Shown here piece by piece: positions 1,898-23,276 of a stretch of 24,610 nucleotides of DNA. How positions within the stretch are numbered: position 1 is the first letter of the stretch; every line of letters begins with the position of its first letter. This DNA is from a virus: IMG/VR virus record IMGVR_UViG_3300043466_000334, positions 1 to 24,610 of that record; one strand, written 5' to 3'. Under the pieces are notes generated by a model. That model was not told where the DNA came from and did not search any database. It saw nothing but the letters and a program-made list of their open reading frames with translations. The translations under genes were made by a program, and so were the position numbers.

Positions 1898-2101
1898 CTA
1901 GTGGTTACTGCCCCGACCGGGGCGTGTCAGTTCAGCCAGCAGTGTCTTATCCGACACCACGATGTAGTTGCTCTTGTGCATCGGGACGATGCAGTGGTTG
2001 ACTGCACGCGCCTCGCGCTCCCCGCACGGCATACAGGTCGAGTACCCCAGCGCCGCTCTCTGGGGGGACACCTCCTCACGCCTGCACCCCGCGCACCTCA
2101 C
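1898..2101 (-). CDS. Small phage Cys-rich protein (CPCGE / PMHKSNY family)
   Basis: Start assigned to GTG at 2101, overlapping the GP88-like stop as GTGA, giving 67 residues. The longer ATG-started reading frame (to 2212) would run far into the upstream gene and adds a basic, non-conserved stretch. The protein has CAGC (residues 3-6) and CMPC (23-26), then VPMHKSNYIVVSDKTLL. I recognise the combination of a CxxC pair, VSPxRxALGY, CxPCGE and PMHKxxY from small proteins in many phages. It probably forms a zinc knuckle. Role unknown. The 3' end encodes a GC-rich stem-loop (1910-1923). Confidence 0.75.
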   Translation of the reverse strand: MRCAGCRREEVSPQRAALGYSTCMPCGEREARAVNHCIVPMHKSNYIVVSDKTLLAELTRPGRGSNH

Positions 2102-2757
2102 TTGCCTGCCCTCGCGGTTGCCTCGCGGACGACCTTCATCATCGATCGACCGTGTGCCACATAGCCGATGACAGGCACCGTCTTGTCGTAGCAGGCGCGA
2201 CATGAGCCGCACTTCCCGTCGTTCACGGCGGCATGACAGAGCATCACCCCGTCCGGCACAGCATCCACGCTCGGCAGGATGGTCGAACCGTGCAGGCCGG
2301 GTACGAATTCACCCATGACTGAATCCGAAGACAGTCGAACCGATACGTTCGGCAGTTCCTGCATCAGCCGGATGACAGCCATGAACTTCGGGAACTTGTG
2401 CATCCGGGTCGGGAGCCAATGCTGACACCACGGGGTGTCGCGCATGACAAGGTAAATCTTATGGGCGAGGTTGATGTGGTACATGTCACCGCTGTCGAAC
2501 CACCGGAAGTATCGATCGTCTACCAATGAGGCGACCATGTCGCCCCACCACCCGTCGCGCTCCCAGTCCGCTCTGTTTGCGTCACGGGGCTTGCGGACAT
2601 TGGGGAAGCGGTAGTTGCCCCCCACGGCGTAGCAGCCTGCACAGGCGTCTACGAGCGTCCCGTCACCGTTCAGCGAACCGGGGCAGGTTTCGAGGGCGTT
2701 GAGTGACCAAGAGCGGATGCCATCCAGTTTCGATACCGTGCTGATGTGGACTGCCAT
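2098..2757 (-). CDS. GP88-like Cys-rich phage protein
   Basis: 219 residues from the ATG at 2757, which has GGAG six bases upstream. In-frame ATGs at 2769 and 2778 lack such a site, and 2778 falls inside repeat element A. The protein matches the pattern of the phage 'Gene product 88' family: an opening K-L-x-x-I-x-x-x-S-L segment, C25, a CAGCY motif (39-43), a V-R-K-x-x-D/N helix start, FRWFDSGD (84-91), a central barrel-like region, and a terminal cysteine cluster CGSCRAC (183-189). The biochemical function of this family is not established. The clustered cysteines suggest a metal or iron-sulfur site, which is inference. It is the first gene of the leftward operon. Confidence 0.75.
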   Translation of the reverse strand: MAVHISTVSKLDGIRSWSLNALETCPGSLNGDGTLVDACAGCYAVGGNYRFPNVRKPRDANRADWERDGWWGDMVASLVDDRYFRWFDSGDMYHINLAHKIYLVMRDTPWCQHWLPTRMHKFPKFMAVIRLMQELPNVSVRLSSDSVMGEFVPGLHGSTILPSVDAVPDGVMLCHAAVNDGKCGSCRACYDKTVPVIGYVAHGRSMMKVVREATARAGK

Positions 2758-2769
2758 ATCGGTCTCCAT

Positions 2770-2802
2770 GTTTTTCATGTCTGCGTGAAACGCTAATTAG
2801 CG
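2770..2802 (-). repeat. Element A, copy 1 of a 33-bp dyad element
   Basis: First of three related 33-bp elements (others at 3555 and 4510). It contains TTTCA-N8-TGAAA followed by a second palindrome, CGCTAATTAGCG. It agrees with copy 2 at 27 of 33 positions. It lies in the leader of the GP88-like operon, between the candidate promoter and the start codon, so it could act as an operator or an RNA element. No protein partner is known. Confidence 0.7.
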
Positions 2803-2865: not shown

Positions 2866-2934
2866 TAAATTGACTTTAATACCATCAGTTAAATGAATTT
2901 GTGCTGGTCGAGTTGAAATAGGCAGGGGGAGAGC

Positions 2935-2961
2935 GTTCCGGGTTTTGTTCCGTTTGTTCCG
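2935..2961 (+). repeat. GTTCCG iterons, left cluster
   Basis: Three GTTCCG hexamers at 2935, 2947 and 2956; the last two are nine bases apart within TTTGTTCCGTTTGTTCCGTG. The same pair recurs at 3078/3087 and, inverted, at 3222/3231. In both plus-strand clusters it is followed by GATTTCTAA (2972 and 3094). Confidence 0.7.
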
Positions 2962-3028
2962 TGTTGTGCCGGATTTCTAACTTTATTTATGGTACAGATT
3001 TGGGGGGGGTGAAAAGGGCGTAAGTGAC

Positions 3029-3070
3029 TGATTTCTCTAATAATAATAATATAATAAGAATATACTAATA
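3029..3070. other. AT-rich block, possible DNA unwinding element
   Basis: Nearly pure A/T stretch with repeated TAA trinucleotides (TAATAATAATATAATAAG), lying between the two plus-strand iteron clusters and directly next to the long inverted repeat. Low duplex stability plus flanking iterons is the usual layout of an origin unwinding site. Function inferred from layout. Confidence 0.45.
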
Positions 3071-3073
3071 GGG

Positions 3074-3240
3074 GTTTGTTCCGTTTGTTCCGTGATTTCT
3101 AAAGTATAAGGAGTGGTTGGCTGGCAATTTTCATGTGGGATAAAGTATGTATTAACTACCTTGCTCCGTACCTCTCGATCGCGAAATTTCTCTCAACCTA
3201 CTCCTTATACTATAAAAAACACGGAACAAACGGAACAAAC
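3074..3240. repeat. 46-bp imperfect inverted repeat carrying paired iterons
   Basis: The left arm (3074-3119) and right arm (3194-3240) are inverted copies with three mismatches and one single-base indel. Each arm contains two GTTCCG iterons at the outer end and AGTATAAGGAGT toward the loop. The 74-base loop contains TTTTCATGT, matching the start of the 33-bp elements, and CGATCG. The arms could form a large cruciform or, if transcribed, a long RNA hairpin. Confidence 0.8.
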
Positions 3241-3282
3241 TTGATTTTCGCTTTGCAATCAACGACTTACGCGTTTTGAAAA

Positions 3283-3321
3283 CGGAACAAACTTGGAACA
3301 ACCCGGAACAAATTACGGAAC
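3283..3321 (-). repeat. GGAAC iterons, right cluster
   Basis: Four inverted iterons start at 3283, 3294, 3304 and 3316: three CGGAAC and one TGGAAC. They are spaced 10-12 bases apart, close to one helical turn, so a bound protein would contact one face of the DNA. Together with the pair at 3222/3231 they form the right, oppositely oriented half of the iteron array. Confidence 0.7.
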
Positions 3322-3325
3322 AAGA

Positions 3326-3361
3326 TTGTGCCATTAGTCAAATATATACTTATGGTACAAA
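3326..3361. repeat. Dyad operator-like repeat, copy 1
   Basis: A 36-bp repeat with arms GTGCCAT and ATGGTAC around a TAGTCAAATATATACTT core. It matches copy 2 at 3461 almost completely, apart from the GTGCC arm and a one-base difference in the core length. A third half-site, TTATGGTACA with an AT-rich flank, lies at 2986-2996. Confidence 0.65.
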
Positions 3362-3460: not shown

Positions 3461-3497
3461 TTTGTACCATTAGTCAAAATTATACTTATGGTACAAA
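3461..3497. repeat. Dyad operator-like repeat, copy 2
   Basis: TTTGTACCAT and ATGGTACAAA form perfect 10-bp inverted arms around a 17-base AT-rich core. The core contains a perfect TATAAT on the minus strand (3479-3484). A protein bound to the dyad would cover that -10 hexamer, as at many phage repressor operators. The region is further bracketed by a 10-bp inverted repeat, TAGGCAGCGC at 3424 and its complement at 3532. Confidence 0.65.
3479..3484 (-). promoter_or_regulatory. Candidate leftward -10 hexamer in the control region
   Basis: Perfect TATAAT on the minus strand, centred within the dyad repeat. The best -35 (TGACGG) is poor and 18 bases away. It would direct transcription into the gene-free iteron region, where no good ORF follows, so a primer or regulatory RNA is possible. 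Pattern evidence only. Confidence 0.3.
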
Positions 3498-3554: not shown

Positions 3555-3587
3555 GTTTTTCATGTCTGCATGAAAGCCTAATTAAGC
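3555..3587 (-). repeat. Element B, copy 2 of the 33-bp dyad element
   Basis: The best palindromic copy: TTTCATG-TCTG-CATGAAA, followed by GCCTAATTAAGC. It lies between the terminator of the 235-residue gene and the iteron region. A second block 46 bases further on (3633-3663) matches 4577-4607 at 24 of 31 positions, showing that the wider cassettes around copies B and C are related. Confidence 0.7.
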
Positions 3588-3725: not shown

Positions 3726-4433
3726 TTAGGCCTTGGCCTTGGCAGCGGCCTTGGCGGCGTTGGCGGCGATGTCGGCCTCGCGCTGCGCGGCCTCACGCTT
3801 CAGGCCGTCCTGCAGCGTGGTCTCGTAAGCGGCAAGTGCTGCCTTGAGCGTTGCTTCGGACGGGATGCCCGGTTCGCCACGCTTGGCAGCGTTGTTCCGG
3901 CGAGTCAGGGCATCATTCACCATCTTGCACTCCCGCCCCATGTAGGTGGCGGCGAAGGATGATGGGGTGCGAGCCCCCTTCCCGGTGCCGCCCTTCAGGA
4001 TGTCGGCGACCTTCCGTTCCAGTTCCTTCATCGTGTTCGACTCGTACTTCTGGCAGTCTTCGCGGACAACCTTGTACGCCGCCTTGCGTGCCGGGTCATC
4101 CTGTCCCATCTTGCCGTAGTCATAGGTGGACAGATTGCACGCCATGTCGCGCGTCAGGGTGAGCACCGTTGCGCCCTTCGGTGCCTTCGGAGCCTTGCCG
4201 TTCTCGGCGGAGACTTCCTCAGCCGAAGTACCGGACAGGACGAAGTGGCGCTCTCCGGTCAGTTCGGCCTTGTGCAAGGCGATACCCTGCTCCAGTTCGG
4301 CCTTGGCCTCATCCGTCAAGCCGTTGGCGTAGCGCCGGGCGACCTCGGCGGCGATGTTTCCGGCCTTGGCCTTCATTTGACTGAAGGTGTATGCCAAGGT
4401 GGCCAAGGTGGATTTGATGATGTCAACAGACAT
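3726..4433 (-). CDS. Lys/Ala-rich hypothetical phage protein (235 aa), single-gene unit
   Basis: The protein starts MSVDIIKSTLATLAYTF behind GGAGAAAG. Residues 15-60 are helical; residues about 75-90 are a basic Pro/Lys/Ala linker (GKAPKAPKGA); a long central helical region with many Lys and Arg follows; and the last 30 residues are an Ala/Lys coil (AANAAKAAAKAKA). No family is recognised. Length, composition and absence of cysteine clusters suggest a soluble, possibly DNA-binding protein, but this is only composition. It has its own putative promoter, a 5' hairpin and a strong terminator, so it appears to be expressed alone and perhaps abundantly. Confidence 0.8.
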   Translation of the reverse strand: MSVDIIKSTLATLAYTFSQMKAKAGNIAAEVARRYANGLTDEAKAELEQGIALHKAELTGERHFVLSGTSAEEVSAENGKAPKAPKGATVLTLTRDMACNLSTYDYGKMGQDDPARKAAYKVVREDCQKYESNTMKELERKVADILKGGTGKGARTPSSFAATYMGRECKMVNDALTRRNNAAKRGEPGIPSEATLKAALAAYETTLQDGLKREAAQREADIAANAAKAAAKAKA

Positions 4434-5612: not shown

Positions 5613-5642
5613 TTGGTACCATGCCCCTTTATCGTATATATT
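5613..5642 (+). promoter_or_regulatory. Candidate rightward promoter for the structural operon
   Basis: TTGGTA (5613-5618) and TATATT (5637-5642) are separated by 18 bases and match the sigma-70 hexamers at four and five positions. The predicted start (about 5648-5652) coincides with the terS ATG at 5652, which lacks a Shine-Dalgarno, so the message may be leaderless. Confidence 0.45.
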
Positions 5643-5651
5643 TCCTACCTA

Positions 5652-6248
5652 ATGGACTTCCCCCTCATCCCAGACATCGAGTCTGACATCACGCTACCGA
5701 GCAACGCTCGGGAGGCCTTCCCCGACCTCACCCCTGCGCAGGAACTGGAAGTCAGGATGAACACGGTCCGCCTGATATCCGATCTGACCCTGCAGCCGAT
5801 CGTGCCTGACTCTGAAGACGAGAAGGCCGCAGCCGCTGCCGTCCGCCAGATGGTCGAAGACCCTGAGTCTCGCCCTGATTTCGACATCTATCCAAACGAG
5901 ACCATCGCACTGATGGCCGGGATCGCGGCGCGGTACAACCACATGATCGTCAAAGATCTAGCGGAACTGAAACTCTACGTGGTGAACCGCCTTTTTGAGG
6001 CCTCGGAGAGCGCCAAAGACGACAAGACGCGCATCTCGGCACTCACGAAGTTGGGTGAAGTGGACGGTGTGGACGCCTTCAAGAAGCGAAGCGAGGTCAC
6101 GCACCAGATCAAGCCCGTCCAAGAGATCGAAAAAGAGTTCAAAGAGATGCTCGCTGCCCATCGGACGCAGAAAATGCTCGAAAAACAGCGTAATTCCACG
6201 TCGATCGACGCTGAATACGTCGAAATCCGTCAAGGTGCGGCTTCGTGA
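5652..6248 (+). CDS. terS: Terminase small subunit
   Basis: 198 residues from the ATG at 5652 (MDFPLIPDIESDITLP). A TTG start 13 codons earlier would lie in the promoter candidate. Terminase small subunits bind the packaging site and deliver DNA to TerL. The N-terminal third is acidic with helices; residues about 98-160 form the recurring pattern of these podovirus-type TerS proteins: ALMAGIAARYNHMIVKDL, then LRLYV-type and KTRISALTKLGEVDGVDAF helices. A charged coil (IEKEFKEMLAAHRTQKM) and a short tail end the protein. It overlaps terL by GTGA. Call based on pattern and position upstream of an unmistakable TerL. Confidence 0.82.
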   Translation: MDFPLIPDIESDITLPSNAREAFPDLTPAQELEVRMNTVRLISDLTLQPIVPDSEDEKAAAAAVRQMVEDPESRPDFDIYPNETIALMAGIAARYNHMIVKDLAELKLYVVNRLFEASESAKDDKTRISALTKLGEVDGVDAFKKRSEVTHQIKPVQEIEKEFKEMLAAHRTQKMLEKQRNSTSIDAEYVEIRQGAAS

Positions 6249-10890: not shown

Positions 10891-11853
10891 ATGAACACTG
10901 AAGCAGAAGAGTTCAAGTTCCCTGACGAGCAGCCTGCTGACGCACCTGCTGAGAAGGTGGAGCCTGAGTTCGAGATCAAGATCGAGGACGATACCCCGCC
11001 ACAGGACCGTGGCCGCGCCCCCATGCCCAAGGAGGTTGTGGAGGAGTTGGACAAGGACGACCTTGAGGAGTACTCGGATAAGGTCAAGAAGCGTCTCGGG
11101 CAGATGAAGAAGGTCTGGCACGACGAGCGCCGGGCCAAGGAAGCCGCATTCCGCGAGAAGGAGGAAGCCCTCCGGTTCGCTCAGATGCGTGAGCAGGAAA
11201 TTCGCCAACTGAAACAACGACTTGGAAATGGCGAGAAGGCATACATCCAAGAGGTGACGAAGGCGGCTAACACCGACCTCGCTGCCGCCAAGGAGCGCCT
11301 GAAGCAGGCTTATGACTCCGGCGATTCTGAAAAGATCACCGATGCGCAGGAAGCCCTGACCGACGCCAAGTTGAAGATCAAGCAGTACGAAAACTTCCGA
11401 CCCTCTTTACAGGAAGAGGAAAGGAGTGTAGAAAATACACAACAGTACCAAGCGCCCCCGGCGCAGCCCGTTGCGGACCCAAAAGCCGAAGCGTGGCGTG
11501 CGAACAATCCGTGGTTCGGCGTGGACGAAGAGATGACCGCTCTCGCCTTGGGACTGCACGAAAAACTGGTCCGGTCCGGCGTCGATCCGCGTAGCGACGA
11601 TTACTACGACCGAGTTAACGCGACGATGAGGAAGCGATTCCCCGAAACTTTCGAGGAAGAGCAGACTCAAACGAGTGGGGCTGAAAGGCCTTCTCGCACA
11701 AAGCCAGCCAATGTAGTGGCTCCCGTTACGAGGTCTACGGCACCTCGCAAGATCACTTTGACGCCTACTCAAGTCGCTCTCGCCAAGAGATTTGGCCTGA
11801 GCAATGAACAGTATGCCCGTGAAGTCATGAAACTGGAGAACAACAATGGCTGA
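10891..11853 (+). CDS. Scaffold-like capsid assembly protein
   Basis: 320 residues, acidic at the N-terminus, then a long helical coiled-coil region (about residues 55-165: EEYSDKVKKRLGQMKKV, RRAKEAAFREKEEALRFAQ, EQEIRQLKQRL). A Gln/Pro linker and a C-terminal domain follow (WRANNPWFG, then TLTPTQVALAKRFGLSNEQYAREV). Such proteins direct prohead assembly and are removed before packaging. The order portal - scaffold - capsid protein supports this. Start at ATG 10891 with AAGGAG upstream. The call rests on position, coil content and the YSDKVKKR signature seen in related phages. Confidence 0.8.
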   Translation: MNTEAEEFKFPDEQPADAPAEKVEPEFEIKIEDDTPPQDRGRAPMPKEVVEELDKDDLEEYSDKVKKRLGQMKKVWHDERRAKEAAFREKEEALRFAQMREQEIRQLKQRLGNGEKAYIQEVTKAANTDLAAAKERLKQAYDSGDSEKITDAQEALTDAKLKIKQYENFRPSLQEEERSVENTQQYQAPPAQPVADPKAEAWRANNPWFGVDEEMTALALGLHEKLVRSGVDPRSDDYYDRVNATMRKRFPETFEEEQTQTSGAERPSRTKPANVVAPVTRSTAPRKITLTPTQVALAKRFGLSNEQYAREVMKLENNNG

Positions 11854-22428: not shown

Positions 22429-23276
22429 GTTCTTTCTCGACGTCGGCGTTTTCGACGTCGGCGTTCTCAACTTCGGCATTCGACATACAGGCCGGGACGG
22501 TCACCGTCTCGGTCACAGGACTCTCTGCGTCAGCCATCCTCGGGAGCGAGACTGTCCTCACGGACATGGTCTTCCCCGTCACCGGGGTGGTCGGCACGAC
22601 GACCCTTGGATCCGTCACCGTCCAGACAGGCGGCGATGTCATCATCTTCGTCTCCGGGGTCGCGGCAAGTGGCCTGCTGGGGTCTGTAACTGTCCTGACC
22701 AACGCTGTCATCCCGGTCACCGGGGTGGTGGGTACTACAGCCCTTGGAGACGAGACGGTCTCTATCAGCGCCACGGTCAACGTCACCGGGGTGGTTGGCA
22801 CGACGGCCCTCGGCAACGAGACGGTCATCACCCAGACCACGGTCACCCCGACCGGGGTGTCTGCCACGGGATCGATCGGTGCAGTCACGGCCATTGGAGT
22901 GGCCAATGTCCCGGTTACGGGGGTGGTGGGAACCACTGCCCTAGGCTCCGTCACGGCGGCGATCGGCATAGATGTCTCGGTCACCGGGGTGTCTGCCACG
23001 GGGGCGATCGGTACGGTTTCGTACTTCTCGGATGTGACCGTCCTGCTGAATGGGGTATCTGCCCTCGGTGTGGTAAATTTGGCCAACGTCTGGGGTATAA
23101 TCGACACCGCACAGACCCCGAACTGGACCGCTGTAGGTACTGCACAGACCCCGAACTGGACCGCTGTAGGTACTGCACAGACCCCAAACTGGACCGCCGT
23201 AGGCACTGCACAGACCCCGAACTGGAACCCCGTCTCAACTTCTCAGAGTGCGAACTGGACTGATATCGTTACTTGA
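22425..23276 (+). CDS. Repeat-rich fibre-like protein (283 aa)
   Basis: 283 residues from GTG 22425 (GTGA overlap). Three sections of repeats: FSTSA three times at the start; about nine units of roughly 22 residues with consensus VxVTGVxxxxxLGxVTV (about residues 27-225), all predicted beta strand and turn; then four near-perfect TAQTPNWTAVG units (11 residues) plus one degenerate, ending NWTDIVT. Such beta-repeat arrays with TPNW motifs occur in fibre and neck proteins of podovirus-like phages. It precedes the long fibre gene and may be a minor fibre or the link between fibre and particle. No catalytic residues visible. Confidence 0.75.
   Translation: MSSFSTSAFSTSAFSTSAFDIQAGTVTVSVTGLSASAILGSETVLTDMVFPVTGVVGTTTLGSVTVQTGGDVIIFVSGVAASGLLGSVTVLTNAVIPVTGVVGTTALGDETVSISATVNVTGVVGTTALGNETVITQTTVTPTGVSATGSIGAVTAIGVANVPVTGVVGTTALGSVTAAIGIDVSVTGVSATGAIGTVSYFSDVTVLLNGVSALGVVNLANVWGIIDTAQTPNWTAVGTAQTPNWTAVGTAQTPNWTAVGTAQTPNWNPVSTSQSANWTDIVT
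22434..22478 (+). repeat. 15-bp tandem repeat encoding FSTSA
   Basis: Three 15-base units encode FSTSA at the N-terminus; the first two are almost identical, the third differs at several bases while keeping the amino acids. Confidence 0.8.
22500..23100 (+). repeat. About nine ~66-bp repeats encoding 22-residue beta units
   Basis: Units share GTCACCGGGGTG and related triplets, encoding V-x-V-T-G-V. They are divergent at DNA level, with two subtypes: VVGTTALG and SATGxIG. The boundaries are approximate. Confidence 0.7.
23105..23265 (+). repeat. 33-bp tandem repeat encoding TAQTPNWTAVG
   Basis: Four copies with a strict 33-base period (ACAGACCCC at 23111, 23144, 23177 and 23210), then a degenerate fifth at 23243. 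Third-position changes only between the first three, indicating recent expansion or gene conversion. Confidence 0.9.

Follow-up and report, generated by a model that had tools for sequence, protein, structure and literature searches.

An opposed iteron array at the early/late gene junction as a probable replication origin of ~60-kb phages

The window analysed here, a stretch of viral DNA that makes up a complete IMG/VR record of 24,610 bases, carries between positions 2935 and 3323 an array of short, opposed iterons which is very probably the replication origin of a ~60-kb phage. The region would be a variant of the SaPI/PICI-type iteron origin that has moved from the initiator gene to the junction of early and late genes. 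The first-pass annotation had named it a candidate replication origin, and this proposal is supported by the conservation of the array, by the presence of a Prim-Pol/DUF927 protein in relatives, and by the IHF sites and AT-rich blocks of these regions. The record is a fragment of a larger phage; a full head module is encoded in the window, and related genomes measure 59-66 kb. The array lies within ~950 bases without a convincing gene, between a GP88-type gene and the gene of protein P235, both leftward, and the rightward terminase, portal and capsid genes begin at 5613; it thus lies where the leftward early genes meet the end that bears the terminase. The genes around it are the following:

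2098..2778, minus strand: GP88 gene (Pfam PF17338, phrog_1392), adjoining the array
3726..4433, minus strand: P235 gene, 235 aa, no known family, between the array and terS
5613..6248, plus strand: terminase small subunit gene (terS), identified from synteny and from its homology to relatives, with an uncertain start codon
6245..7771, plus strand: terminase large subunit gene (TerL, phrog_38), the anchor of the comparison

Open reading frames overlapping the array reach at most ~60-70 aa, and its iterons, 8 bp long, are located in intergenic DNA. A second record (L037) contains the same array and extends 7.7 kb further left, with AAA and VWA genes, and a third one from another sample (L061) contains part of it, its P235 being 96% identical. 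Since the array is present in L037 and partly in L061, it is no assembly artefact. The AAA and VWA genes of L037 (3122-5384) encode a MoxR-like ATPase (phrog_1297) and a VWA/metallopeptidase-like protein (DUF2201), a pair that adjoins the putative origin in many relatives. An Rfam search of the window returned no RNA family, and the phage DNA database gave no nucleotide match to the array region. Elsewhere in the window, a structural protein ends in TPNWTAVGTAQ repeats, which are encoded by near-identical tandem units at 23100-23240.

Within the 390 bases of the array, GTTCCG or its complement CGGAAC occurs exactly ten times, and the variant TGGAAC once, which accounts for the eleven GTTCCG-type hexamers initially counted. 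Dinucleotide shuffling (500 shuffles) gave a mean of 0.27 and a maximum of 3 exact hexamers in 2900-3350, versus the ten observed, and a chance origin of the array is excluded. The layout described at first, five plus-strand copies followed by six on the minus strand at spacings of 9 and of 10-12, is correct, with distances of 9, 10, 11 and 12. The features of the region are, from left to right:

2935..2971, plus strand: outer-left iterons, GTTCCG at 2935, 2947 and 2956, with a degenerate TTGTGCCG at 2964
3021..3033, minus strand: predicted IHF-like site AATCAGTCACTTA, one mismatch to WATCAANNNNTTR
3035..3073, no strand: AT-rich block containing AAT repeats, a candidate DNA unwinding element
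3074..3120, plus strand: left arm of the dyad, starting with the inner-left iteron pair
3076..3092, plus strand: inner-left iteron pair TTGTTCCGTTTGTTCCG, GTTCCG at 3078 and 3087, spacing 9 bp
3194..3240, minus strand: right arm of the dyad, closed off by the inner-right iteron pair
3222..3238, minus strand: inner-right iteron pair CGGAACAAACGGAACAA, CGGAAC at 3222 and 3231
3257..3269, plus strand: predicted IHF site AATCAACGACTTA, the sole exact match to the consensus in the window
3283..3323, minus strand: outer-right iterons, CGGAAC at 3283, 3304 and 3316 and TGGAAC at 3294, spacings 11, 10 and 12

The order is therefore three plus-strand copies, the AT-rich block, two plus-strand copies, a centre of 129 bases, two minus-strand copies, a spacer and four minus-strand copies. 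Degenerate copies of the form TTGTGCC, at 2964 and 3327, lengthen the array, and this form is the main outer iteron in a close relative, G025. The inner pairs mark the two outer ends of a near-perfect dyad, with arms of ~47 bp, ~73 nt apart, as anticipated by an earlier description of a 46-bp inverted repeat around a 74-base loop; the ungapped match covers 57 nt at 82%, and the gapped core is GTTTGTTCCGTTTGTTCCGTGATTTCTAAAGTATAAGGAGT. The AT content of 3035-3073 is 82% (90% in the best 40 nt). Iterons are indeed present on either side of this block, but its earlier placement at the middle of the dyad does not hold, since it sits between the third and fourth plus-strand copies and the dyad core is not the most AT-rich part. 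Past the iterons, the arms of these dyads are more complementary within a phage (18.5) than between phages (14.4; permutation p = 0.0002), with the window giving the strongest single value, which indicates that the dyad itself is maintained.

Further repeats surround the array. A 36-bp palindromic repeat, TTGTGCCATTAGTC...ACTTATGGTACAAA, also written TTGTNCCATTAGTCAAA...ACTTATGGTACAAA, is found at 3326-3361, with a second copy (92% identical) at 3462-3497 and a further site at 2981-2997. The ends of the repeat at 3326-3361 resemble degenerate iterons, and in relatives a similar TTTACNTATNGAACAG is located close to the outer iterons; these repeats might serve as promoters or operators whose ends are degenerate iterons. 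The whole region is bracketed by a 30-bp direct repeat (2770-2799 and 3555-3584) that contains the inner palindrome TTTCATGTCTGCATGAAA and whose left copy overlaps the start of the GP88 gene.

Conservation was assessed by scanning viral contigs for TTGTTCCGTTTGTTCCG, which gave 117 loci. Many of them, which belong to long open frames as repeats of coding sequence, were left out, and the intergenic ones fell into two main groups: relatives of the window phage whose TerL, portal, AAA and VWA genes are homologous to its own (group A), and phages and prophages with a VapE-domain primase-helicase (group B). Among the relatives fetched by TerL, the array is located 1.3-4.6 kb upstream of TerL in most of those that reach far enough. 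Although its core varies (GGAACA, AGAACA, TGAACA, GTAACA, CTAACA and others, in phages of 36-57% GC), its geometry is steadier than the core sequence. The inner pairs are inverted, and in 17 of the 18 arrays examined they are 8-9 bp apart internally and separated by 108-138 nt. The AT-rich block lies outside the left inner pair. The AT block itself and the number of iterons differ among phages. An independent set was built from genomes fetched by their primase alone, ten of which carried the same TerL family. In every one of the ten, the strongest cluster of short repeats in the 8 kb upstream of TerL was an iteron array, at a distance of 2.0-3.1 kb from that gene and with GGAACA, TGAACA, GTAACA and TACTCA as cores. 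The iterons are thus kept in relatives that share the flanking genes, one of the checks proposed by the first-pass annotation.

Predicted IHF sites accompany many of these arrays. The motif GTAAGTCGTTGATTT adjoins the AT block, and its complement fits the IHF consensus; in the window, the IHF-like site at 3021-3033 lies in an extended motif which it has in common, inverted, with the exact site at 3257-3269; such predicted sites beside iterons and AT block are as expected of an IHF-assisted origin. The 24 origin regions of group A contain 22 exact WATCAANNNNTTR sites versus 1.1 in shuffles (maximum 5 of 300), a ~20-fold excess, with six control patterns giving 0 or 1 match each and a density 35-fold lower (0.053/kb) elsewhere in the group A loci. 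The exact site is missing from 9 of these 24 regions, and in the primase-selected set it is present in 3 of 10 and absent from the other seven, while none was found in 17 group B arrays checked. The site is therefore a frequent but not a universal part of these regions. Judging from the predicted sites, the host would have IHF and is probably a proteobacterium.

That no initiator gene is in the window, as stated from the start, is correct for this 24.6-kb record, which is a fragment; neither it nor L037 covers the region of the Prim-Pol/DUF927 gene, and the initiator considered here is taken from relatives. The large relatives encode a protein of ~950 aa that combines an N-terminal Prim-Pol-like part with a DUF927 MCM-like helicase. 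Seven contigs that also cover the sequence upstream of TerL encode it (G002, G003, G004, G024, G025, G026 and G027); in one of these, G024 (protein at L389, 1447-4332), TerL is 86% identical to that of the window. The protein was not found in G028, an array-bearing fragment of 33 kb. Four complete genomes with a homologous TerL and without this array (DSL-LC04, 023Pt_psg01, HTVC023P and HTVC027P) lack the protein as well; all four encode an AEP-TOTE-type primase, and a separate UvrD-type helicase is present in the two in which it was looked for. In profile comparisons, the helicase half of the protein matches SCCmec Cch (3.7e-23) and SaPIbov1 Rep (7.2e-21), and its AlphaFold model (mean pLDDT 83) has Cch and SaPIbov1 Rep as top Foldseek matches, followed by MCM helicases; this half is homologous to both proteins, which are initiator helicases that load themselves. 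In relatives the gene lies ~20 kb from the array, and the surroundings of the DUF927 gene itself yielded no array. In SaPI Rep and Cch2, it is a C-terminal domain that recognises the iterons (PMC7581432), and Prim-Pol proteins with a VirE or DUF927 ATPase and C-terminal winged-helix domains have been predicted to function in origin recognition (PMC5862659). When the profiles of the two primase classes were compared directly, no C-terminal domain common to both was found, and in VapE phages the covariation of iteron type and C-terminal domain is marginal (p = 0.047 after correction for core similarity). Two other candidates were rejected: P235 as initiator, which belongs to no family and was not found in G024, and the AAA/VWA pair as iteron binder, also not found in G024.

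Whether the array belongs to replication or to packaging was a main point of the comparison, given that terminase small subunits often bind repeats and that the one of this phage is encoded ~2.3 kb away, where it could bind the array to begin packaging at a pac or cos site. The usual distance of 1.3-4.6 kb to TerL fits such a role, as do the other 7-mer arrays near terS in two relatives without the DUF927 initiator, 023Pt_psg01 (L124, 13575-13790) and HTVC023P (L126, ~11680-11810), in which TGGCACA occurs seven times and CTAGGAAA five or more times; such arrays may serve packaging or be the origins of another system. A pac/cos site follows the terminase genes, though, and here DSL-LC04 has the homologous TerL and no such array, while the reverse is seen in Pseudomonas phage Rollin, in whose terminase, portal and capsid no similarity to those of group A was detected. 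Rollin and group A share only the Prim-Pol/DUF927 protein (25% identity), a small nuclease and a PolA-family polymerase, yet Rollin has TTGCATA/TATGCAA eight times in 420 bp (record positions 260-680), three copies being spaced 9 bp and facing three others in the opposite orientation, next to the AT block AATAATAATAATAATAA and to one of the only two IHF consensus sites in its 61 kb. Similarly, the group B arrays are located directly 3' of the VapE primase-helicase gene, also in the named phages Fontainebleau, Adelaide and LWP01. The presence of the array in Rollin without the group A terminase, together with the arrays at VapE genes, indicates that it follows the replication genes and not the terminase, and we regard a packaging site as improbable. 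In Rollin (L392), positions 1-900 also hold dense TTAGC/GCTAA and AAAAGGTAGTAACTTACTACCTTTT repeats beside the TTGCATA array, within an unannotated region of 1.4 kb. The VapE loci (L306-L385, and L393, L394 and L396 for the named phages) have unannotated arrays in the 420 bp that follow the stop codon of VapE, with cores particular to each phage (GGAACA, GGACAA, GTAACA, CGGCAA, AATTACA, GTGAACA and GTCAACA), and such arrays are likely the origins of many prophages.

Two further explanations concern the protein that would read the iterons. An origin bound by host DnaA or by another phage protein, with the primase in a secondary role, is unlikely in our view: the AAA/VWA genes, immediately left of the array in many relatives, would be candidates for such a binder, but none of GP88, P235 and AAA/VWA was detected in G024, where the array is intact. 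DnaA boxes (TTWTNCACA) are absent from the array of the window and present in only 3 of 21 others, and the drift of the iterons between phages suggests a phage-encoded binder. The same genome bears on the idea of an operator array for a phage transcription regulator that would act on the terminase side as well as on the leftward early genes, as no conserved regulator gene adjoins the array in all relatives. The place of the array between oppositely transcribed blocks, 157 nt upstream of the GP88 gene, and the regulatory appearance of the palindromic repeats at 3326-3361 and 3462-3497 would suit an operator. Since this explanation accounts neither for the AT block, the IHF sites and the fixed-span dyad nor for the link with primase-helicases in several phage groups, we consider it very improbable. 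GC skew, for which a switch at the array had been suggested as a check, was dropped as support for an origin: in the contigs checked, the cumulative skew is lowest ~0.7-3 kb away from the array, but this is also where the divergently transcribed blocks meet, and the maximum does not lie opposite the minimum. Because the skew follows gene direction, it is uninformative and only compatible with an origin.

For the origin bound by the phage's own primase-helicase, we infer the following course. The Prim-Pol/DUF927 initiator, in which a primase is joined to an MCM-like ring helicase that loads itself, and which relatives encode outside the region of the window, would bind the iterons (TTGTTCCG repeats), probably via its C-terminal domain, while host IHF would bend the DNA beside the AT block. 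The block would then melt, two helicase rings would load at the two inverted halves, and both forks would be primed, making replication bidirectional.

The closest known systems are the origins of SaPIs and PICIs, in which a melting site rich in AT is flanked by two iteron sets and which follow the gene of the initiator (PMC6092414), a self-loading Rep helicase (PMC6092414, PMC7581432). As in SaPIbov1, SaPI5 and the E. coli PICIs, multiple short iterons stand on both sides of an AT-rich region in the window. The helicase half of the putative initiator, as encoded by relatives, is homologous to SaPIbov1 Rep. The PICI origin, however, is immediately 3' of the initiator gene, and the satellites are small and without a full structural module, whereas the phage region has IHF sites and an extended dyad, and the phage primase and helicase are fused. 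Since it stands apart from the initiator gene and belongs to a full phage, we classify it as a variant that would work like a PICI origin, and not as a PICI origin. Cch2 of SCCmec binds AAGTG iterons just 3' of its own gene via the C-terminal domain (PMC7581432); Cch shares the DUF927 MCM-like helicase with the phage protein, but the iteron of Cch2 is a different one, the phage protein has its own Prim-Pol, and SCC replication in vivo is not demonstrated. The VapE/VirE prophages (e.g., Corynebacterium phage Adelaide, Listeria phage LWP01 and Acutalibacter phage Fontainebleau) follow the same iteron grammar, with GGAACA, GGACAA, GTAACA or GTCAACA iterons, AT-rich spacers and 8-9 bp pairs; they differ in the array directly downstream of the primase-helicase, in the helicase domain (PF05272) and in the lack of an exact IHF consensus in the 17 arrays checked. 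In P4, short direct and inverted iterons and AT-rich DNA are bound by a primase-helicase, the alpha protein; some relatives here have a GTGAACA core, but the primase and helicase families are others and the P4 iteron is absent from the window. The iterons of lambda-type origins adjoin an AT-rich stretch as well, but are longer and lie within the initiator gene O, in contrast to the intergenic ones of the window. Among the papers searched, none was found to describe iteron origins for VapE or DUF927 phages.

A broader reading, on which our confidence is evenly balanced, is that inverted NNAACA-type pairs spaced 8-9 bp beside an AT block are an architecture common to Prim-Pol/DUF927 phages, VapE prophages and PICIs, in which the iterons would drift with the fused primase-helicase as a family-wide recognition code, and from which the DUF927 phages would have departed by detaching the array from the initiator gene and acquiring IHF sites. 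Few origins of environmental phages are known, and the arrays make a probable origin recognisable in one group of ~60-kb phages and, independently of these, in many VapE prophages, which have cultured members. As the core drifts while the geometry stays, the set could show how self-loading MCM-like helicases read their origins, and Pseudomonas phage Rollin makes the proposed origin accessible in a laboratory host.
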